Source of the DNA: Streptococcus oralis subsp. dentisani
GTDB lineage: Bacteria > Bacillota > Bacilli > Lactobacillales > Streptococcaceae
DNA: 64,000 nt
Direction of reading: 5' to 3'
Assembly (NCBI RefSeq): GCF_007475365.1
Contig: NZ_CP034442.1
Span: 434,001 to 498,000, forward strand
Shown: in pieces, positions 51,403-63,862 of the stretch
How positions within the stretch are numbered: position 1 is the stretch's first letter
Layout of the letters: the number at the start of each line of letters is the position of its first letter
Notes under the pieces: generated by a model
What the model was told of the DNA's origin: nothing
The model's input: only the letters and a program-made list of their open reading frames with translations
Database searches by the model: none
Program-made: the position numbers and the translations under genes

Positions 51403-52278
51403 CTAGTCCGTAATTCGTTGATACATTTCTGGTCTTCTATCACGAAACAGTCCCCAGTTGAGGCGTTCACTTGCTCCCTTGTCAAGGTCATAAGTTGCTA
51501 ACAGAACAGCTTCACCTTGTCTTTCAGCTCTTTCTAGAATAGCTCCTGTTTCATCCGTCATAAAGGAGGAACCGTAGAAGTCAAGACTGGAACTCTGTCC
51601 ACCATTTTCCTCACTAGGAGTGACTTCCTCCAAACCGTAACGATTGGCTGCAATGACTGGGACAATATTCGCTGCTGCGTGACCTTGCATAGTACGTTGC
51701 CAGTGACCACAACTATCTGTATCCAAAATTGGTTCTGAACCAATGGCTGTAGGATAAAAGAGCAATTCAGCACCATTCAGAGCAAGACAGCGCGCTGTTT
51801 CAGGAAACCATTGATCCCAACAGATACCAATCCCAATCTTAGCATAGCGAGTATCCCAGACCTTGAAACCAGTGTTACCAGGCGTAAAATAAAACTTTTC
51901 TTGATAATAATGATCATCTGGTATGTGGGTTTTCCGATAAACACCCAGCACTTCCCCATCTGCATCAATGACAGCAATAGAGTTATATAAGACATTGCCA
52001 TCTTTTTCATAAAAACTAATTGGTAAAACAACTTGTAGTTCCTTAGCAAGCACTTTAAAATGCTGAATGGCTGTATTTTCTGTCACCGACTGGGCACACT
52101 GGTAGTAGTCATACTGACGTTCCTGACAGAAATAGGGACGTTCAAACAATTCGGGTAAGAGAATAATTTGTGCGCCTTGTTCTGCAGCCTGACGTACTAA
52201 ACGCTCTGCAGAGTGGATATTCGTTGCCACATCCTTGGCGCATTGCATCTGGATTGCTGCAACTTTTACATTTCTCAT
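51403..52278 (-). CDS. aguB: N-carbamoylputrescine amidase
   Basis: AguB converts N-carbamoylputrescine to putrescine, CO2 and ammonia. The 291-residue nitrilase-superfamily protein shows the catalytic triad region: Glu in LLPELFERPYF (about residue 43), Lys in RKTHIPDDHY (about 119) and Cys in GICWDQWFPE (about 155). It is the last gene of the operon and starts 8 bp after aguA. Confidence 0.95.
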   Translation of the reverse strand: MRNVKVAAIQMQCAKDVATNIHSAERLVRQAAEQGAQIILLPELFERPYFCQERQYDYYQCAQSVTENTAIQHFKVLAKELQVVLPISFYEKDGNVLYNSIAVIDADGEVLGVYRKTHIPDDHYYQEKFYFTPGNTGFKVWDTRYAKIGIGICWDQWFPETARCLALNGAELLFYPTAIGSEPILDTDSCGHWQRTMQGHAAANIVPVIAANRYGLEEVTPSEENGGQSSSLDFYGSSFMTDETGAILERAERQGEAVLLATYDLDKGASERLNWGLFRDRRPEMYQRITD

Positions 52279-52286
52279 TTTTTCTC

Positions 52287-53372
52287 CTATTCTGGGATTT
52301 GTTGGGTAATACAGTGGATATTACCACCACCCAAGAGAATATCTCTGGCTGGTATTCCGACAACTTTACGGTCTGGGAAACACTTACTGAGGATATCTAA
52401 GGCAACTTGGTCATTGACATCTTGAAACTGGGGAACAAGGACAGCCTTGTTGGCAATATAAAAATTAACATAGGAAGCTGCAAGACGTTCACCCGCATAA
52501 CGCTCTTCTTCACCTTCTTCATAGGTATAGCCTAGCAAATCCTCTTCGGTTACAACTTGATGAAGCGCTGGGATAGGCAATTTATGAATGGTGAAGGGAC
52601 GCCCTTTTGCATCCGTTTCCTTTTCTAAAAGCTCAAGGTCGGCTGCAGACATGGCATACTGAGGATCGCTTTTGTCGTCTGTCCAAGCTAGAACAAGCTC
52701 TGAAGGACCTACAAAGGCTGCAACATTGTCAACGTGTTCATTGGTTTCATCCTGATAAATACCATAAGGAAGCCAAATAACTTTTTCAGCTCCAAGGCTA
52801 TCTAATAAGGTATTTTCGATTTCCTCTTTACTTAGATGAGGATTGCGACCAGGACTAAGCAAGCAACTTTCAGTCACGAGAATCGTTCCTCGACCATCGC
52901 TATGTATTGCACCGCCTTCTAGTACAAAAGGTTTAGCATCATAAACAGGCATTTCCAAGGCCTCAGCAAAACGACTAGCTACTTGGTTATCCTCTTCATA
53001 ATCTTGATAAAGACCATCGACTGTACCACCCCAGGCATTGAAAGACCAGTCTACTGCCAACTTTTCCCTTTTATCATTGAGGAGAATGGTCGGACCAGTA
53101 TCACGCGCCCAGGCATCATTTGTCGGAATATCTAAATAAACAACCTTGTCTCCTAGATAGGATTGGGCTTCAGATAGATGATCCTGCTCCACCAAAAGAT
53201 AAACAGTTTCCCTTTCTGCTATGGTCTTGATAATTTGGCTAAATGCTTTTTTGGCAGCCTTTCCTTGGAAGGGCCATGAACCTGGTCGAGTCGGCCAGAT
53301 CATGAGGGTTCCATGATGTGGTTCGTACTCTGCTGGCATACGATAGCCTAATTTCTTTGGACTGTCCATCAT
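52287..53372 (-). CDS. aguA: Agmatine deiminase
   Basis: AguA converts agmatine to N-carbamoylputrescine. The 361-residue protein has the family patterns [20 protein letters not shown] near the N-terminus, [14 protein letters not shown] near residue 85, [20 protein letters not shown], and the C-terminal catalytic cysteine in [11 protein letters not shown]. In this operon it acts between the decarboxylase and AguB. It overlaps nspC by 4 bases. Confidence 0.96.
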
Positions 53373-54496
53373 GATAATCTCCCTTTAAAGTCTTGGTAAC
53401 CGAAGGCTTTGACTAAACTGCAGTCTCCCTGCTCGTCCATAAGATAGAGACTTGGCAAGCCAATACCGTTAAAAGTATTATTTTTGACAAAGGAGTAAAT
53501 AGCCATATCTTCGAAATAGAGTCTGTCACCGATTTGGACTGGATTTTCAAAACTATAGTCGCCAATCACATCACCCGTCAGACAAGTATTGGAAGAAAGT
53601 CTATAGGTATGGGCTTTTTCCTGAGCCTCAAATCCATTTCTCAAAGGTGGACGATAGGGCATCTCAAGTACATCTGGCATATGGCAGGTCGCGGAGGCAT
53701 CTAAAACCAAGATCTCCATACTGTTTTCTACAATATCCAATACTTCAGTTGCTAGATAACCCGCATTGAGCGCAATGGCTTCACCCGGCTCGATATAGAC
53801 CTCAAGATTGTAAGTTTCTCGGATACGCTTGATTTCAGAAATCAGCAAATCCACATCGTAATCTTCTCTTGTGATGTGGTGTCCGCCACCCATATTGAGC
53901 CATTTCACCTCATGTAAATAAGGACCAAACTGCGCTTCTACTGCTTTCAAAGTTGTCTCTAAATCATCTGAACCTTGCTCGCAAAGGGTATGAAAATGAA
54001 GTCCGTCCACTAAATCCAACAAATCACTAGGAATTTTATCAAGTGTCACACCAAAACGAGAACCTGGTGAACAAGGGTCATAGAGCGCGTGATCTCCTTG
54101 GGTTGAACATTGAGGATTGATACGCAAACCGACACTGATACCAGCCGCTCGACAACGAGGACCATGTTTACGCAACTGTCTCTCCGAGTTAAAGACGATA
54201 TGGTCTGTTATCTCAAGCAATTCCTCCAAGTCCACATCCCTGAAAGCTGGCGCAAAAACATGGACTTCCCCCGGAAATTCTTCTCTAGCCAGCTTCGCTT
54301 CATAGAGACCACTTGCAGTTGTACCAGATAGGTACTGGCTAATCAAGGGATAGGTTTTGTAGAGGGAATATGCTTTCTGGGCAAGCAAAACCTTGCAACC
54401 AGCTTCTTCTTGTACATATTGTAAAATGCGACAGTTGGCTTCTAACTTTGCTAAGTCAATGACGTAAGCTGGTGTTGGTACTTGTTCTAGCTTCAT
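53369..54496 (-). CDS. nspC: Carboxynorspermidine/carboxyspermidine decarboxylase
   Basis: NspC is a PLP-dependent enzyme that decarboxylates carboxy(nor)spermidine to (nor)spermidine. The 375-residue alanine-racemase-fold protein begins with [18 protein letters not shown] and has the PLP lysine in [10 protein letters not shown] near residue 41, HFHTLCEQG near residue 172, and [13 protein letters not shown] near residue 235. Together with the upstream dehydrogenase it makes spermidine without S-adenosylmethionine decarboxylase. Confidence 0.92.
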
Positions 54497-55755
54497 TAGT
54501 CCACCATTTGCGGATTCTCAACCACAACCCAAGGCAAACCATACTCATTCAATGCTTCCATGAATGGATCTGGATCCAACTCTTCAAGGTTGTAAACTCC
54601 AGGTTGTTTCCAAGTACCGTTCATCACTAATTTTGTCCCAATCATAGCTGGAACTCCTGTTGTGTAAGAAATAGCTTGTGAACCAACCTCTGCGTAACAT
54701 TCCTGATGGTCGCAAACATTGTAGATATAGATGGTCTTTTCAACACCGTCTTTGACACCTGTAAAGATACAACCGATATTGGTTTTACCAACTGTGCGTG
54801 GACCAAGGCTGGCTGGATCTGGAAGCAAAGCTTTCAAAAATTGGATTGGTACGATTTCTTGACCGTTAAAGTTAATGGTATCCGTACGAAGGAGTCCGAC
54901 ATTTCCCAAGCATTTCATGTGTGTTAGATAAGATTGCCCAAAGGTCATAAAGAAACGAATCCGTTTGACACCAGGAATGTTTTTGGCCAATGATTCAATT
55001 TCTTCATGGTGAAGGAGATACATGTCTTTTTGTCCAACTTGAGGGAAATCATACTCACGCTTGATAGACATAGCTTCAACTTCGACCCATTTTCCATCTT
55101 CCCAGTAAGAACCTGGCGCAGAAACCTCGCGGAGATTGATTTCTGGGTTAAAGTTTGTCGCAAATGGATAACCGTGATCTCCACCATTACAGTCTAAAAT
55201 GTCGATATAGTGGATTTCATCGAAGTAATGTTTGAGGGCATATGCTGAAAAGACACTAGTCACACCTGGGTCAAAACCAGAACCAAGAAGAGCAGTTAAG
55301 CCAGCTTCTTTGAATTTCTCCTGATAAGCCCACTGCCATGAGTAGTCAAAGTAGGCTGTAAATCCAAGTTCCTTACAACGTTTCTCATAAATAGCACGCC
55401 ATTCAGGGTCTTCTGTATTCTCAGCCTCATAGTTGGCAGTATCTATATAGTGGACACCTGTCGCCAAACAAGCATCCATGATAGTTAAGTCTTGGTATGG
55501 CAGAGCTACGTTCAAAACGGCTTCTGGTTTGTAGCTTTCAATCAAAGCAATCACTTCTTCTACCTTATCAGCATCAAGAGCAGCTGTTTCAATCTTTGTA
55601 CTTGTTTTGCCTTCTAATTTAGCCTTCAAATCATCACATTTTGACTTTGTACGGCTAGCAATCATAATCTCTGTAAAGGTTTCGCTATCTTGACAAATCT
55701 TTGAAATAGCAACTTGGGCAACGCCCCCACATCCAATGACTAATAAACGACTCAT
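54496..55755 (-). CDS. lys1: Carboxynorspermidine/carboxyspermidine dehydrogenase (saccharopine dehydrogenase family)
   Basis: This enzyme condenses putrescine (or diaminopropane) with aspartate semialdehyde and reduces the product with NADPH. The 419-residue protein begins MSRLLVIGCGGVAQVAISKI, a Rossmann motif, and belongs to the saccharopine-dehydrogenase-like family. It is often labelled lys1 or lys9 in streptococci, but its place between speE and nspC points to polyamine synthesis, not lysine metabolism. Its stop overlaps the nspC start by one base (TAATG). Confidence 0.9.
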   Translation of the reverse strand: MSRLLVIGCGGVAQVAISKICQDSETFTEIMIASRTKSKCDDLKAKLEGKTSTKIETAALDADKVEEVIALIESYKPEAVLNVALPYQDLTIMDACLATGVHYIDTANYEAENTEDPEWRAIYEKRCKELGFTAYFDYSWQWAYQEKFKEAGLTALLGSGFDPGVTSVFSAYALKHYFDEIHYIDILDCNGGDHGYPFATNFNPEINLREVSAPGSYWEDGKWVEVEAMSIKREYDFPQVGQKDMYLLHHEEIESLAKNIPGVKRIRFFMTFGQSYLTHMKCLGNVGLLRTDTINFNGQEIVPIQFLKALLPDPASLGPRTVGKTNIGCIFTGVKDGVEKTIYIYNVCDHQECYAEVGSQAISYTTGVPAMIGTKLVMNGTWKQPGVYNLEELDPDPFMEALNEYGLPWVVVENPQMVD

Positions 55756-56612
55756 TTTTTCCCTTCCTCATCTTCTAAAATATCCTCAACATACTTGGGC
55801 AACATAAAGGCACCCACATGTAAGTTTGCAGTGTAGTATTCTGTGAAAAGCTGGCGTTTTTTCCAGCCTTCCTTATCAAAATCTTTGACCGGGTGGTATT
55901 TTTTCGATGCAAATCCAAACAACCAATAACCAGCAGGACTGGTTGGGATGTGCGCCTGATAAACCCGACTGATTGGAAAGGCTTGATTGACCTTACGGTG
56001 CATACTTCGGCAAGCTGACTCATCTTCGTCAAAGAAAGGACTACCATGCTGATAAATCATGATGCCGTCTTTTTTGAGAGCTCTGTAACTGTTTCCATAA
56101 AATTCCTTGGTAAAGAGCCCTTCCGTATGTCCAAATGGATCTGTTGCATCGTTGATGATAATATCGTAGTCATCTTCACAGTTTCGCAAAAAGCGTAGCC
56201 CATTTTGGTAGTAAATGGTAACACGAGGATCATCTAGCCCTGCAGCAAAGTCTGGGAAATACTCACGGCAGACCTCAACCAACATCTCATCTGGTTCCAC
56301 AATATCGATTTGCTCAAGTTCAGGATAGAGGGTTAATACTTGGGCAACACCACCGTCACCACCCCCAATAACCAAGACTTTCTTTGGATTGGGATGCACA
56401 GCCATGGGAACGTGAACGGTCATTTCGTTGTAAACAAAATCATCCGCATCTGAGAACAAGACGTGACCATTTAAAATCAGTATTTTCCCAAAAGCTGGCG
56501 TATCCAAGACTTCGATATCCTGCCATTCACTTTTTCCAGCATAGAGTTGCTTGGCAGTTCTCAAGGACAATTTCACATCTGGAGTATGAACTTCAGAAAA
56601 CCATAAATCCAT
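55752..56612 (-). CDS. speE: Spermidine synthase-type aminopropyltransferase
   Basis: This 286-residue protein has the SpeE pattern: ILNGHVLFSDADDFVYNEM, HVPMAVHPNPKKVLVIGGGD (about residues 70-89) and INDATDPFGHTEGLF near residue 153. Classical SpeE needs decarboxylated AdoMet made by SpeD, and no speD is in this operon. Its role beside the NspC route is therefore uncertain. It overlaps the next gene by 4 bases and directly abuts speA. Confidence 0.93.
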   Translation of the reverse strand: MDLWFSEVHTPDVKLSLRTAKQLYAGKSEWQDIEVLDTPAFGKILILNGHVLFSDADDFVYNEMTVHVPMAVHPNPKKVLVIGGGDGGVAQVLTLYPELEQIDIVEPDEMLVEVCREYFPDFAAGLDDPRVTIYYQNGLRFLRNCEDDYDIIINDATDPFGHTEGLFTKEFYGNSYRALKKDGIMIYQHGSPFFDEDESACRSMHRKVNQAFPISRVYQAHIPTSPAGYWLFGFASKKYHPVKDFDKEGWKKRQLFTEYYTANLHVGAFMLPKYVEDILEDEEGKK

Positions 56613-58073
56613 CTAGTTCTCCTTTCTCTTAATGACGTTGATGTGATTGACCTCTGGATCTTCCGTCCCTTGGAGGGAGCAACCACGTTCCTTGGCAAAT
56701 TGGATATAGTCTACAATTTCTCGTGTAATACGTTCACCAGGAGCCAAAATTGGAATCCCTGGAGGATAGCACATGACAAATTCCCCACAGACATGTCCAA
56801 CAGAATCAGCCAAGGATAAACTTTCTCTTTCTGAATAGAAGGCTTCTTGTGGAGACAGCACTAACTCTGGTTGGATATATTCTCCAGCTATCAAGTCTTT
56901 CCCATCTCTTGAGTAGAGTCTCTTGATATCAGCCAAAGCACCGACCAAACGTTCGATATCTTGGATGCGGTCACCGATGGAAATATAGGCCAAGATATTC
57001 CCAATATCCCCAAACTCGATCTGAATATCGTATTCATCTCGCAAGAGGTCATAAACCTCTATCCCTGTTAGCCCAATCCCCTGAGTGTACACTGACAGCT
57101 TGGTCACATCAAAATCACAGACTGACACACCGTCTATTAACTCTTTTGAGTAGGCATAGTAACCACCAATAGCATTGATTTCACGACGAGCATACTCGGA
57201 TAGCTCAATGACTTTCTCAAACGACTCTTTTCCACGAAGAGCTAAGTTGCGACGTGAAATATCCAAACTAGACATTAACAAGTAGGAGGCTGATGTTGAC
57301 TGAGTCAAGTTGATGATCTGACGAACGTACTCGGGATTCATCTGATTCCCAATAAGTAAAATGGAGCTTTGGGTCAAACTCCCACCAGACTTATGCATAG
57401 AGACCGCTGCCATATCAGCGCCAACGTCCATAGCAGATAGCGGCAATTTATCTGTAAAATGCAGATGAGCTCCATGGGCTTCGTCCACTAAAACAAGCAT
57501 GCCAGCTTCATGAGCCATTTCCGTCAAACCTTTAAGGTCTGAACAAATCCCATAGTAGGTAGGATTGTTGATTAGGATAGCTTTAGCATCCGGATGTTCC
57601 TTGATGGCCTGTGCAACACGGTCATTTTCAAGACCTAAAGCGATGCCGATTTTAGGATCTACACTCATCTCGATATAGATGGGAATGGCACCACATAGAA
57701 CCAGCGCATTGATAGCAGATTTGTGGACATTACGTGGCAGAATAATCTTATCTCCTGCCTTGCAGGTGGAAAGAATCATGGTTTGAACAGATGATGTTGT
57801 TCCACCAATCATGAGAAAGGCATGCGCTGCTCCAAAAGTATCAGCTGCTAGTTCCTCTGAATCCCGAATAATCGAAATGGGATGGCCTAGATTATCCAAG
57901 GGTTTCATAGAATTGACATCAATGCCAACACATTTTTCTCCCAACAATTCAACAAGTTCTGGATTTCCCCGTCCGCGTTTGTGACCTGGTACATCAAAGG
58001 GAACAATCCGTTTCTTTCTTAGCTTAATCAGACCTTCATAAATAGGGGCCTGATTTTGATCTAACTTTTTCAA
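56613..58073 (-). CDS. speA: Orn/Lys/Arg decarboxylase (probable arginine decarboxylase)
   Basis: This PLP enzyme is the first step of the pathway; with aguA and aguB downstream the likely reaction is arginine to agmatine, although such genes are often labelled lysine decarboxylase (cad). The 486-residue short-form protein has the PLP lysine in SMHKSGGSLTQSS (about residue 228) and DEAHGAHL (about 198). The start is TTG, 8 bases after AAAGGAG. An ATG-TCT-TGA minimal frame overlaps it but sits too close to the ribosome site. A long structured leader with a terminator precedes it. Confidence 0.93.
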   Translation of the reverse strand: MKKLDQNQAPIYEGLIKLRKKRIVPFDVPGHKRGRGNPELVELLGEKCVGIDVNSMKPLDNLGHPISIIRDSEELAADTFGAAHAFLMIGGTTSSVQTMILSTCKAGDKIILPRNVHKSAINALVLCGAIPIYIEMSVDPKIGIALGLENDRVAQAIKEHPDAKAILINNPTYYGICSDLKGLTEMAHEAGMLVLVDEAHGAHLHFTDKLPLSAMDVGADMAAVSMHKSGGSLTQSSILLIGNQMNPEYVRQIINLTQSTSASYLLMSSLDISRRNLALRGKESFEKVIELSEYARREINAIGGYYAYSKELIDGVSVCDFDVTKLSVYTQGIGLTGIEVYDLLRDEYDIQIEFGDIGNILAYISIGDRIQDIERLVGALADIKRLYSRDGKDLIAGEYIQPELVLSPQEAFYSERESLSLADSVGHVCGEFVMCYPPGIPILAPGERITREIVDYIQFAKERGCSLQGTEDPEVNHINVIKRKEN

Positions 58074-58136: not shown

Positions 58137-58165
58137 TGAAAAAAGAGCAGGTTTTCACCTGCTCT
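58137..58165 (-). terminator. Intrinsic terminator in the speA leader
   Basis: On the - strand AGAGCAGG-TGAAAA-CCTGCTCT is followed by a T-run, only about 65 bases before the speA start. It lies between the leader RNA and the structural genes, so it could act as an attenuator or end a separate small RNA. Confidence 0.9.
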
Positions 58166-58235
58166 GCAATCTTCTGACGTGTTTATTTTGGTTTCTGTTG
58201 AGTATGTCTGTTCCTGATGTTTCCTAACTCTCTAG

Positions 58236-58440
58236 TAGCAAATATTACGTACTTTATTGATCGTTTCACAAGATGACGTGTGCTTTCACCACACTAAAAT
58301 TTATGAATTAGGACAAGCGTCCTAACATCAACTTATAAAAGTAGGCTTTTAACCCTATCAATAATGTGGCTTTTCAACCACGCTTCGGCATTCAACCCTG
58401 CCTGTCCGTAGGCATTTTTTACTCGGGTTTATATTTGCTA
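58236..58440 (-). ncRNA. Candidate structured leader RNA of the polyamine operon
   Basis: A perfect 10-bp stem (58431-58440 with 58236-58245, TAGCAAATAT / ATATTTGCTA) closes a 205-nt domain. Inside are hairpins at 58399-58414, 58366-58381 (GTGG/CCAC), 58342-58357 (TAGG/CCTA), 58309-58324 (TAGGAC/GTCCTA) and 58278-58294 (GTGTG/CACAC). Several loops share a GGTTGAAAAGCC-like sequence. An alternative stem at 58387-58402 would exclude the first hairpin. No T-box sequence, lysine riboswitch core or other class I know was found. With the downstream terminator it looks like a riboswitch-like attenuator or a stand-alone sRNA. Confidence 0.6.
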
Positions 58441-58471
58441 GAAAACATCTTCTCATTTTCTAAGCCTTATA

Positions 58472-58500
58472 ACTATATCATGTTTACAAGAGCTTGTAAA
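58472..58500 (-). promoter_or_regulatory. Promoter of the polyamine leader/operon
   Basis: On the - strand TTTACA (58495-58500) and TATAGT (58472-58477) have a 17-bp spacer. The predicted start near 58465 gives a leader of about 325 nt to the terminator and about 390 nt to speA. Confidence 0.75.
58483..58500. promoter_or_regulatory. Palindromic operator overlapping the -35 box
   Basis: TTTACAAG-AG-CTTGTAAA is a perfect 8-bp inverted repeat with a 2-bp centre that covers the -35 element. It is a likely repressor site; the protein is not known. Confidence 0.6.
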
Positions 58501-60624: not shown

Positions 60625-61121
60625 TCAGAGCATATCAACATACCATGTTTTTTCATCGCCAAATCCATAGAATTTCTCATCAATCAACCATTTGCCATCA
60701 ATCAACCTAAGCACAAACTTATGTTTCATTTCCAAAGCTTCCTCATAGTATAGTATGACCGTTGCCAGATCCCTTTTTCGCATGGTAAACCAAACGGAAA
60801 AATTCTCGCCTCGTAAATACGAATACTCACTTGGATGGCCATAGGAGTTCCTAGCCCCTTTTAATAAGAGTTTCTCGCTTACACAGCCATCCAGGAGAGC
60901 CAGATAGCGTTGATGGTATTCGTCCATCAGTTTCTTCCATTCGGGATGAATCTGATGTGAAGGTATCTTGAGTAGCCTTTTTTCAGCATCGAGTTCCTTG
61001 TTGTATTCATAGATTCCTTCTTCCAAAAAGGTTAATTTCTGTAATAATTCCAATAAGAATGTAAGAGTTCATCTACCATTTTTTTGTATTTTTCTGGGGT
61101 GCTTTTTAACGTCAGTTCCAT
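60625..61121 (-). pseudogene. Frameshifted NTF2-like/immunity-type gene
   Basis: Two frames appear to form one gene. A short frame from ATG 61121 (after GAGG at the end of the upstream gene) runs 29 residues, MELTLKSTPEKYKKMVDELL and a few more, then stops at 61032. The main frame (142 residues, stop at 60625) continues from there but has only a TTG start at 61053 without a ribosome site. A one-base indel between about 61035 and 61060 would join them into a protein of about 165 residues. The C-terminal part (VILYYEEALEMKHKFVLRLI, GKWLIDEKFYGFGDEKTWYV) looks like a small NTF2-type fold. This could also be a sequencing error. Confidence 0.5.
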
Positions 61122-61127
61122 TATCTT

Positions 61128-61688
61128 CTAACCTCGATATTCATGTGTCAGTTCTGCCAATTCTCTATCAGACAGACTACCATCAGTATAGAGTTTTTTC
61201 AACAACTTATCATCAAATTCAAAAGAATAATATTCTATCACAAATTCTTTAAACCTATCGTATGTATCAAAGGTGTATCCCAATAACCAAGTTCCGCCGT
61301 TATTATTCTCAATGTTATTTTGATGAATGGTACCATCATACCAGATACAAAATGTTGTTTCTTCTCTTTCTTTTAAAGTTAAAAGATTCAGCCATTTTTC
61401 ATCAATACCTTCATAAATCCTGTCGATAATGTTCTGATTCCATTGGTCAGCTGCAAACTGATTGAGACTATTTTCATGATCAAATCCCTTTATCAAGACC
61501 ACTTCTTCTGTAAAAATCACATCCAAAGAATCCCCAGCACCGTTATCAATGCTGTATCGGCTAGTGAAGTCCGTTACTTTCTTTCGTATCAATCTCAAAT
61601 AGTCTTTTGAAGGATCTGTTAAATAATCATCCAAAACATACAAGGCCTCAAGGCTTTTTTGCATATTGTCCCGGTATAAGTGCTTCAT
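61128..61688 (-). CDS. Hypothetical soluble protein, immunity-like
   Basis: This 186-residue acidic protein is rich in aromatic residues (DGTIHQNNIENNNGGTWLLG, TYDRFKEFVIEYYSFEFDDK). The start follows AAGGTGAG. Small, acidic, single-domain proteins in tandem are typical of immunity proteins to polymorphic toxins, but I cannot assign a family. It ends within bases of the next, frameshifted gene, suggesting coupling. Confidence 0.65.
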   Translation of the reverse strand: MKHLYRDNMQKSLEALYVLDDYLTDPSKDYLRLIRKKVTDFTSRYSIDNGAGDSLDVIFTEEVVLIKGFDHENSLNQFAADQWNQNIIDRIYEGIDEKWLNLLTLKEREETTFCIWYDGTIHQNNIENNNGGTWLLGYTFDTYDRFKEFVIEYYSFEFDDKLLKKLYTDGSLSDRELAELTHEYRG

Positions 61689-61716
61689 ATCTCACCTTTT
61701 CTACCCATCTTTTCCA

Positions 61717-62178
61717 TTACTTGCTAAAATCGCAATTCTTATAGCGAGAAGAAACAAAGCCTGAAATCGAAATCTGAGGAATATTCCATTCATTAGCTAG
61801 GTAAATCCTGCATTCAATTTCATCTCCTTTAGGAGTCCTTGCAATAAATTCGTATCTTCCTAATTCTTCATTGTTTCTATTTCTTTCAATCCTTTCGAAA
61901 TAGCTTTCTTTAAAAAATTTCTGAAACGCTTCCCAAATCAGCTCAACCTCATTAAGCGATAATTCGACTTTTAGACCATATCCCAATCCAACCTTACATC
62001 TCATCTTTCGACCCGTTTCATCAGCTTTGCAAGTTTTTACGCTTCCTTTATTATGAACCCAATCAATACTATCCAATTGATTGATCTTAATAGCTAATAA
62101 GTCTTTGAACCCAGTCATTTGTCCTAGAAAATACTTAGATGCAATTTCAAAAATCTCTAAATTCTCCAATGCCATCAT
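61717..62178 (-). CDS. Hypothetical soluble protein, immunity-like
   Basis: This 153-residue protein has a beta-rich pattern in its second half (GRYEFIARTPKGDEIECRIY, ISISGFVSSRYKNC). Two adjacent ATG codons (62178 and 62175) follow AGAGAGG very closely; a TTG a little downstream has better spacing, so the start is uncertain. It is a member of the row of small genes at 59-64 kb. No family is recognised. Confidence 0.6.
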   Translation of the reverse strand: MMALENLEIFEIASKYFLGQMTGFKDLLAIKINQLDSIDWVHNKGSVKTCKADETGRKMRCKVGLGYGLKVELSLNEVELIWEAFQKFFKESYFERIERNRNNEELGRYEFIARTPKGDEIECRIYLANEWNIPQISISGFVSSRYKNCDFSK

Positions 62179-62224
62179 CCTCTCTTATAATTTGAACCTT
62201 TCTTGGCCAGCTTACACTAGTTTC

Positions 62225-62362
62225 CTAATCCGCATCTACCCAGAGATGATATTTTTTACAGTCAAGACATTTCAATAGATAGCCACAAACGGATCTATTA
62301 CCATCCTCGATTAATATTGGATCTTGAAACTCTTTATATATAAAATACTTCTCGTTTTTCTT
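62225..62362 (-). pseudogene. C-terminal remnant of a CbrC (UPF0167) family gene
   Basis: The - strand encodes 45 residues with the stop at 62225 and no start: FQDPILIEDGNRSVCGYLLK followed by CLDCKKYHLWVDAD. The end CxxC-K/H-x6-VDxD is typical of the C-terminus of CbrC family proteins, and E. coli CbrC is linked to colicin E2 tolerance. An in-frame stop lies directly upstream, so the first two thirds of the gene are gone. Confidence 0.6.
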
Positions 62363-62383
62363 CTATTATACCACTTAAACGAC

Positions 62384-62414
62384 AAAAGCCTGTAGTTTCA
62401 GTGTACTGCAGGCT
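62384..62414 (-). terminator. Terminator after the HEAT-repeat-like gene
   Basis: On the - strand GCCTGCAGT / ACTACAGGC is followed by TTTT. It lies 140 bp after the HEAT-like gene stop and before the CbrC remnant. The 140 bp between show nothing clear. Confidence 0.7.
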
Positions 62415-62554
62415 TACTATGTAGAAAGAAACAATGATGACCACAACATTCATACATTTCAGGTGCTGATATTGATAATATGTTCCTTTGTAGTTTTAGA
62501 GATGCAGAAACTTATCTATCAAATAACTCTCAAATGTTTCTATATGATTGGTGT

Positions 62555-63283
62555 CTAATGCTTACTTAGAAATCTAATAGCAGATTTTTGAGCCTTTTCT
62601 ATTTTTTCAAGGTCCATATTTTCTACTGCAGAAGATGGTATCCATCTCTTGCCAAATAATATTTGAGCTGCTTCTATCATCATACCGCAAGCATAGAGGT
62701 CTTTTTCTTCGGTAATAGCTTGAATAAAACTGGTCTTTACTTCTTTGGATATGATTTCTACTTTTACTCTATGAAAGGACAGTTGCATGAGACTTGCCGC
62801 AGACCATGCACGACAAAAAGCATCTCCATCACCTAGCATTTGTCTTGTCAAAAGACCAATTTCTTTTTCTGTTCCTACCCAACCTAAAGCTATGACCACC
62901 TTTTGACGAAGAATAGTATTCTTTATATCTAAAAGTGAAATGAGAATAGGAATCAGTTGGTCACAAAGCGACCAATAAAAATCTCGATGCTTTGATTTAG
63001 AAAGGATTTCCGCTATAAGATACGCAGTCAATACACTTTGTTTTTCATCTTTAACTTCATCCAACTGTTCAAATAGAAACTCTAATCCATCTCTTCCATG
63101 TTTATCAAAGCTACCTTCTAAATGCAGGTTTCTACCTTCATTCCAATCTTTGCAAATCAGTTCATAATGATATGCGATTTCTTGGGAACTACCCAAATTA
63201 GCTACAAATTTGATTCTTTTACCAGAAGGAAAGCTTTCTTTTTCCAAGTCAAGATATGCTTTTTGTAAATCTTCTTTATCCAT
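62555..63283 (-). CDS. HEAT-repeat-like protein, possible immunity protein
   Basis: This is a 242-residue helical protein from the ATG at 63283 (GAGG 7 bases upstream; a TTG at 63295 is less likely). The middle has paired helices with the pattern of HEAT repeats (DQLIPILISLLDIKNTILRQ followed by KVVIALGWVG; MLGDGDAFCRAWSAASLMQL). HEAT-type proteins occur among immunity proteins of contact-dependent and LXG toxins. There is no signal peptide. Confidence 0.65.
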   Translation of the reverse strand: MDKEDLQKAYLDLEKESFPSGKRIKFVANLGSSQEIAYHYELICKDWNEGRNLHLEGSFDKHGRDGLEFLFEQLDEVKDEKQSVLTAYLIAEILSKSKHRDFYWSLCDQLIPILISLLDIKNTILRQKVVIALGWVGTEKEIGLLTRQMLGDGDAFCRAWSAASLMQLSFHRVKVEIISKEVKTSFIQAITEEKDLYACGMMIEAAQILFGKRWIPSSAVENMDLEKIEKAQKSAIRFLSKH

Positions 63284-63331
63284 TTTTTGCCTCAAGCTAT
63301 TTTATTCTTTTAGAAACGTTTGATAAACCTT

Positions 63332-63862
63332 TTAACAAATAGTGACCATGACATTACCATTGAGCTCTAAAATTTTCTTGTAAAAATCTTTCATTGCTTG
63401 GAAATACTCGCAGATTTCTTCTTCAATCTCTTCCTCTTCTTCATCATAATCCCAAATATCAGGATAAAGATCTGCATTTTTACAAGCTTGCATACTAAAA
63501 TGCGCCATGGCTTCTTCCATATCAAAGTTTTCCAATGCTGAATAAATTTCTGCTACTTTTGTTTTTTCTGTATAAGTAATATATTCTGCGACATTTTCAA
63601 GTGGCGTCACACCCAAAATAGCCACGCTCAAAGGATCATTCCGACTGGGGTTTGAAGTACCAACATCTGTAAGCACAAAATGAAGAACATCCCACATTTT
63701 ATCTATATCAAGTAGAAGTTCTTCTTCCTCTACTATCTCAAATTGATCTTCTTCTTCAGCATTAAAACTTTTCATTTGATGTAAATACTGATCATTGATA
63801 TATCTATAATTAGCAATCATTCCCATTTGTTTTTCCTCCAAAATTTCTATGTTGAATGACAT
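63332..63862 (-). CDS. YfbM family (DUF1877) protein
   Basis: This 176-residue acidic protein shows the family pattern: MGMIANYRYINDQYLHQMKS (about residues 13-32), LLDIDKMWDVLHFVLT (about 50-65), and a C-terminal acidic helix before FYKKILELNGNVMVTIC. DUF1877 proteins are common in immunity-gene arrays and their direct role is unknown. It is the right-most - strand gene. Confidence 0.8.
   Translation of the reverse strand: MSFNIEILEEKQMGMIANYRYINDQYLHQMKSFNAEEEDQFEIVEEEELLLDIDKMWDVLHFVLTDVGTSNPSRNDPLSVAILGVTPLENVAEYITYTEKTKVAEIYSALENFDMEEAMAHFSMQACKNADLYPDIWDYDEEEEEIEEEICEYFQAMKDFYKKILELNGNVMVTIC

Follow-up and report, generated by a model that had tools for sequence, protein, structure and literature searches.

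The RNA specified upstream of speA in Streptococcus oralis subsp. dentisani is proposed, with moderate confidence, to act in cis as a riboswitch-like attenuator of transcription of the spermidine operon, its ligand being most likely spermidine. The components of this reading differ in strength. It is very likely that the leader attenuates spermidine genes in cis and probable that it binds its signal directly; identification of that signal as spermidine is evenly poised, and we infer both the direction of the switch and the switching helix. The window, the 64,000-nucleotide stretch of DNA analyzed here, carries a promoter, a structured leader and an intrinsic terminator before the first gene, all on the same strand, which is the arrangement of an attenuator as judged from sequence. 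As in riboswitches, the fold is covarying and aptamer-like, and the genes that accompany it in different lineages consistently belong to a single pathway. The initial annotation had suggested a riboswitch-like attenuator of a polyamine operon, a proposal that is now well supported as far as a cis-acting leader is concerned.

Organization of the leader and operon

Transcription of the leader is predicted to start near 58465 on the minus strand. A promoter scan detected the -35 and -10 elements TTTACA and TATAGT, with a 17-nt spacer and a TG before the -10 element, at 58472-58500 on this strand, bearing out the consensus-like promoter previously annotated; similar letters occur in near relatives and the S. 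pneumoniae transcript entries start at the equivalent place. A 5' hairpin, P0 (CUUAGAAAA / UUUUCUAG, 58438-58464, identified by eye), is formed with different letters in other leaders but not in every one, none being seen by eye in locus L046. The folded core, defined by alignments and by the match to its covariance model, R1, extends over 58238-58439, and dinucleotide shuffles of the leader region fold less well than the region itself (z -5.23, 0/100 shuffles as good). Alignments identify a conserved linker, GAGAGUUAGGAAAC (58200-58232), containing the stem P9 (GAGU 58230-58227 / ACUC 58203-58200), followed by GAUUGCAG, which is GAUUGUAG in most relatives, and the intrinsic terminator AGAGCAGGU-GAAA-ACCUGCUCU with its U run (58139-58171, the terminator itself at 58165-58144). 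The strong terminator previously noted is thereby confirmed, about 65 nt upstream of the speA UUG start at 58073. The distance from the predicted start to the end of the U run, 58465-58139, is 327 nt; in two S. pneumoniae records the span from the corresponding GCUUAG through the last letter of the T run measures 328 nt. The promoter scan of the window listed no minus-strand site between the terminator and speA, suggesting that the operon probably depends on read-through.

The first gene, speA (56613-58073, minus strand), is named as an arginine decarboxylase gene after S. pneumoniae SP_0916, for which this activity is stated in PMC7531197; the best NCBIfam matches of its product are Orn/Lys/Arg decarboxylases, all below cut-off. 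It is followed on the same strand by speE, encoding a polyamine aminopropyltransferase (55752-56612, NF002010 above cut-off), the gene for CASDH, carboxynorspermidine synthase/carboxyspermidine dehydrogenase (54496-55755, NF043000, E 5e-122, 408 bits against a cut-off of 800), and nspC, encoding carboxynorspermidine decarboxylase (53369-54496, TIGR01047 above cut-off). Two further genes (51403-53372, minus strand), for a putative agmatine deiminase (52287-53372) and a putative N-carbamoylputrescine amidase (51403-52278), owe their names to inspection by eye and to the operon of S. pneumoniae as presented in PMC10887117. Together these genes constitute an arginine-to-spermidine operon. A run of short reading frames without assigned function is present upstream of the operon (60625-63862, minus strand).

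Structure and covariation of the core

The core is closed by a long-range stem, P1 (58438-58431/58245-58238), which encloses P2 (58429-58425/58398-58394), the hairpin P2a (58413-58400), P3 (58381-58366), P4 (58364-58358/58260-58254), P5 (58355-58343), P6 (58340-58327/58277-58264), P7 (58325-58308), likewise part of the core, and P8 (58294-58278), all on the minus strand. P1, P2, P3, P5 and P8 covary, P2a is supported, and P4 and P6 showed no variation in the covariation test. Among 16-18 sequences, paired cells amounted to 138/144, 72/72, 68/68, 61/68 and 78/80 for P1, P2, P3, P5 and P8, respectively, with double changes at 1/8, 2/4, 3/4, 2/4 and 2/5 positions, and the observed pairing of each was reached by 0/500 shuffles. 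In this test the strands of P2, P3 and P8 were chosen by hand, and L235 was omitted from P3 and P8, L233 from P8, L042 from P6 and one sequence from P5. In the second leader type described below P6 does vary, two of its positions having G-C in place of A-U. Three loci were omitted from core alignments A2 and A6 because of inserts of very roughly 130-190 nt, located inside the P3 hairpin in L056 (1987-2327) and L057 (1710-2053) and inside the P5 hairpin in L059 (1653-2100), the remainder of the core being kept in each. Judged from these sequences, the P3 and P5 hairpin loops appear to tolerate insertions.

Comparison with other genomes using a covariance model, which had been recommended as a check on the closing stem, found P1 kept and covarying. 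The perfect 10-bp stem originally described, UAGCAAAUAU/AUAUUUGCUA, was retained in part: its inner 8 bp, corresponding to P1, persist in relatives, and its outer 2 bp in near relatives only. Two stems had also been considered mutually exclusive. One, 58414-58399, is the supported P2a; the other, 58402-58387, is not conserved, its GGC arm being GGU in L060 and L031 and GCC outside the order with the UGCC partner unchanged, and was rejected as an alternative stem. A loop sequence said to recur in several hairpins is present in P3 and P5, of which the P5 loop, GUUAAAAGC, is largely conserved but the P3 loop is not, so that the resemblance looks accidental and is probably due to chance.

Additional pairings may extend the core. 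A possible pseudoknot identified by eye, PK1, would join AGU 58253-58251 and ACU 58236-58234, which flank the 3' strand of P1 (58234-58253, minus strand), the equivalent outside Streptococcus, also by eye, being AGAGU/ACUCU. A second possible pairing, PK2 (58216-58449, minus strand), would join GAUGUUUUCUA at 58449-58439 with UAGGAAACAUC at 58226-58216. In a shuffle test the PK2 duplex beats 95% of letter shuffles in 13/18 leaders, 10/11 from Streptococcus and 3/7 others; exact partners vary among lineages, and PK2 and P0 exclude each other in the window.

Linkage to speA within Streptococcus

R1 was built on 18 Streptococcus sequences only. It matched 120/335 genomes of the family, all in the window's own genus (1/10 genera), and 16/295 genomes of the order, again in this genus only (1/74 genera); these large searches used stricter filters, at which weak matches are lost. 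An exact-pattern search matched 79 named contig stretches, every title being Streptococcus. Among 284 genomes of the genus, 117 contain both the RNA and speA, 3 the RNA only, 2 speA only and 162 neither (Fisher p 1e-73, uncorrected for relatedness, genomes of one genus not being independent). For this comparison, speA orthologues were counted in 119 of 128 matching genomes, nine weak ones (22-34% identical) being dropped. All 117 RNAs are on the same strand as speA and point at it, at a distance of 131-676 nt (median 162) that is below 250 nt in 115 of these genomes.

The three genomes with the RNA and no speA are G254 and G256, in which a transposase-like gene is next, and G275, in which the contig ends. 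At the corresponding loci, L049 (G254) and L038 (G256), an intact leader is succeeded by a frame identified by eye as an IS200/IS605-like transposase. An intact leader with speA absent nearby indicates that the RNA can outlive its operon. Similarly, speA is broken in seven of the 117 genomes, the match being in two pieces in five (G043, G125, G127, G129, G152) and containing an in-frame stop in two (G037, G156). RNA decay is visible only in G043, the others scoring strongly, including G037 in which the RNA has an insert; the mostly undecayed RNA beside a broken speA (6/7 genomes) again indicates that the RNA can outlive speA. In G043 (L044/L188), part of P6-P8 is deleted and speA is split in two frames, which from the sequence looks like joint decay of RNA and speA.

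A second leader type and spread across Bacillota

The two Streptococcus speA orthologues lacking the RNA are 62-63% identical to the window speA and carry another conserved leader, type B, probably a relative of the window-type RNA (type A) on sequence evidence. R1 detected nothing convincing on these two divergent leaders. Type B has strong matches in 11/395 genomes of the order, one of them Streptococcus and the rest extending to further genera, and all 11 are upstream of and on the same strand as speA; in G109 a type B leader is also located before speA. The underlying DNA search, with one of the two divergent leaders as query, matched 14 genomes, three with only 24-34-nt matches being set aside. 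Type B was absent from the plasmid and phage collections searched, and a family search around G336 matched 7/105 genomes, all of them type B genomes found before. The type B fold, tested on the same sequences from which its structure was drawn, is 99.0% paired with double changes at 6 pairs, and its paired cells were matched by 0/500 shuffles.

A model of type B, R2, matched 5/151 genomes of the class, three of them outside the order. On these three loci R1 gave E-values of 2.9e-23, 2.4e-22 and 6.3e-21 and R2 gave 1.4e-8 to 8.1e-8, covariance-model E-values being rough; matched by both models, they bridge types A and B. Direct comparison is not significant alone, with E 0.014 at best for R1 on type B and 0.14, at the right place, for R2 on type A. 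According to these models the two types thus appear to be linked through intermediates only. At each bridging locus the RNA is followed by CASDH and then nspC (by eye in the third). No extra copy was found in relatives of the three bridging genomes, 4, 2 and 1 genomes from the family or orders concerned.

Among 96 genomes of the phylum, R1 matched six including its own, the five new matches having E-values of 2e-21 to 9.8e-9 and one being partial. One of the five, in the class, precedes CASDH; of the four outside the class, two precede speD followed by speA and two precede speA, one of the latter having the partial core match. Thus, 8/8 loci outside the order precede spermidine genes on the same strand: CASDH in four, speD then speA in two, and speA in two. 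A terminator is located ahead of the gene in the loci inspected by eye. Over all searches, covering 1,952 genomes with overlaps counted, the distribution of the RNA within Bacillota is patchy, with scattered members, and in the genomes examined it is present almost only in front of spermidine-making genes. We consider it an even proposition that these RNAs constitute a new riboswitch class, patchy in Bacillota and with at least two structural types, that would bind spermidine and terminate transcription of whichever spermidine gene comes first (speA, speD or carboxynorspermidine synthase).

Relation to catalogued RNAs

An S. pneumoniae transcript from the equivalent place has been catalogued as a putative sRNA since 2010. 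It appears as SN20, which lies between SP0915 and SP0916, has its own promoter and terminator and is given a length of 318 (PMC2887815), as F59/srn235, with a Tn-seq lung fitness of 0.05 (PMC3395615), and as M7 at TIGR4 869478-869804, 327 nt, matched in 385/385 surveyed strains and retained on a list purged of cis-regulators (PMC12323649). SN20, F59, srn235, Spd_sr49 and M7 occupy the same place as the window element, and M7 has the same length. A review, PMC4387999, repeats the transcript, in the part concerned, without function. Where these entries, as available, describe a putative sRNA without assigned function, we read a cis-acting leader. On the strength of a short motif, one publication conjectured an FMN-switch-like role, which is rejected here in that no Rfam FMN match was found on the element.

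The Rfam entry RF02440, SpF59_sRNA or 'ldcC RNA', is typed 'Gene; sRNA' and called Streptococcus. Its 54 positions correspond to the P2/P2a part of the window-type RNA, whereas the element described here comprises about 200 nt plus linker and terminator and is a leader. The Rfam search that had been suggested gave a divided result: the window scores 28.5 bits (E 0.003-0.005), below the threshold of 37.2, and several relatives are above it. The threshold is passed by L048, L032, L034, L050, L222, L223 and L224 and failed by L031, L059, L058, L044 and L070. A sub-threshold window with passing relatives indicates that the window is an RF02440 homologue failing the formal cut-off. The three bridging copies outside the order (L222, L223, L224) score 61.9-70.7 bits, more than the Streptococcus copies scanned. 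With its 54 nt, its sRNA type and its Streptococcus name, RF02440 appears mis-scoped. RF02440 had no match at E up to 1 on seven type B loci scanned. The earlier failure to recognize a described class consequently holds for the full fold, which is undescribed, but not for the RF02440 fragment or for the transcript listed since 2010.

A full-text literature search found RF02440, SpF59 and 'ldcC RNA' in 0 papers, and one on speA leaders in Lactobacillales found nothing relevant. The best-ranked matches listed in literature searches on RNA elements of polyamine genes did not show the element as a leader, nor is it shown as one in the available portions of PMC8632094, PMC11109978, PMC7266159 and PMC6429828; the supplementary list of 141 early-terminated elements belonging to PMC6296669 may contain it. 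Neither the complete element nor its role in cis nor its wide occurrence was found in the literature searched. The spermidine riboswitch of PMC10853860 is likewise a leader riboswitch of polyamine genes, with a terminator-controlled case before ldcC. It is described there as a close SAM-I variant, whereas Rfam SAM families have no match in the window at E up to 5 or in the relatives scanned at E up to 1, and identity with it was rejected on this basis. The odc1 and potE motifs of PMC8632094 are also RNA elements near polyamine genes. As far as its descriptions extend, odc1 occurs with an ornithine decarboxylase gene and is listed under uORF elements, potE is a weak candidate, and neither is placed before speA, speD or CASDH. 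Other Rfam leader classes were rejected for the element, scans of the window and relatives giving no match. Elsewhere at these loci, a ribosomal protein L21 leader, RF00559, is located upstream of the element in L058 (3157-3228, minus strand, 58.8 bits, above threshold), and a match to the Staphylococcus sRNA S35 lies away from the leader in L186 (5057-5167, 33.7 bits, below the threshold of 69).

Regulation and alternative explanations

Location almost only before spermidine genes, combined with a terminator, suggests that the RNA probably senses a polyamine and switches the genes off. As the first gene varies by lineage and the end product is always spermidine, spermidine is the likeliest signal. 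RNA polymerase would start near 58465 and make the aptamer-like domain P1-P8, probably with pseudoknots, before meeting the terminator at 58165-58144. With polyamine, most likely spermidine, plentiful, the domain would be stabilized and transcription terminated, generating the RNA of 327 nt that the catalogues list as a 'small RNA'; with polyamine scarce, polymerase would read on into speA-speE-CASDH-nspC.

A systematic search for covarying antiterminators, which omitted L056, L057, L059 and leaders of 250 nt or less, returned mostly invariant complementarities and, in the window type, no antiterminator with covariation. The best candidate in this type pairs GAGAGUAGG with the terminator 3' arm over 9 bp, an extra U interrupting it in the window's group. 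By eye, L224 contains segments resembling a four-part attenuator ahead of the terminator (AUUAAAGAGC / GCUUUUUAAU / AAAGCAAGUG / CACUUGCUUU) and L222 a similar set, thus two of the three bridging loci.

Published expression data are mixed. As reported in PMC8540371, deletion of a polyamine transporter increased speA 16.9-fold and speE 14.4-fold by qRT-PCR, a change not seen in the RNA-seq of the transporter mutant. According to PMC10887117, the transport blocker AMXT 1501 increased five operon genes 1.4-1.9-fold by RNA-seq and three of these 2.4-3.3-fold by qRT-PCR, DFMO decreased two pathway genes 1.5-fold, and polyamine-synthesis proteins are said to fall upon SP_0916 deletion. Following polyamine depletion, therefore, two studies report increases and other results decreases, so that derepression is disputed in these sources.

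The same leader could be an attenuator in which a protein, or the ribosome or a tRNA, reads the signal in place of direct binding of a metabolite to the RNA. Such a reader would be fitted equally well by a large conserved fold with a terminator, and the change of first gene between speA, speD and CASDH is uninformative in this regard. However, no frame is common to the leaders: two of 13 scanned list no candidate, and the commonest frame, from the conserved AUGCCGAAGC, occurs in 4/13 and has no ribosome-binding site. A leader-peptide attenuator was rejected given the absence of a conserved short frame with a ribosome-binding site among the 13. The Rfam scans of the window and relatives also placed no leader of the T-box, PyrR or ribosomal-protein kind on the element, and a length of about 200 nt with numerous unpaired letters that do not vary would be more typical of an aptamer; we regard a protein or ribosome reader as unlikely. 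That the RNA is chiefly a trans-acting sRNA, located before speA by chance, is very improbable. It is catalogued as a discrete RNA (SN20, 318; M7, 327 nt in the entries available), and it persists in two genomes that have no speA and in several in which speA is broken. The Tn-seq lung fitness reported in PMC3395615, which might be added in its favor, does not distinguish the two views because leader insertions would also silence the operon. Against it, 117/120 copies are upstream of speA and, outside the order, the RNA precedes other spermidine genes too. Independence from the downstream gene is confined to the 3/120 copies without speA, and the sRNA was rejected as the main role. This accompaniment of speA in 117/120 genomes renders the stand-alone sRNA initially offered as an option less likely, with a second role possible.

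If the RNA does bind a metabolite, an upstream or side compound (arginine, agmatine, putrescine, S-adenosylmethionine or its decarboxylated form) is a doubtful alternative to spermidine. speA uses arginine and speD uses AdoMet, and each is the front gene in some loci. However, CASDH is the first gene in four loci, followed by nspC in three (one by eye), and the CASDH and nspC enzymes use neither arginine nor AdoMet; spermidine is the end product common to all front genes. Arginine, suggested at the outset, is unlikely as a general ligand, being weakened by the four loci outside the order in which CASDH is first with no arginine decarboxylase between.

Implications

Because polyamines adhere to RNA in general, selective polyamine sensing by an RNA is difficult to establish; PMC10853860, in the text available, regards earlier polyamine-sensing claims as unconvincing and describes one class only. 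Insertions cause a lung defect (fitness 0.05), and this, together with the reported capsule effect of speA loss, makes control of the operon directly testable. If the proposal is true, the orphan 'small RNA' of pneumococci and the 54-nt entry in Rfam would become a regulator that is widespread, controls spermidine synthesis and has an undescribed fold.
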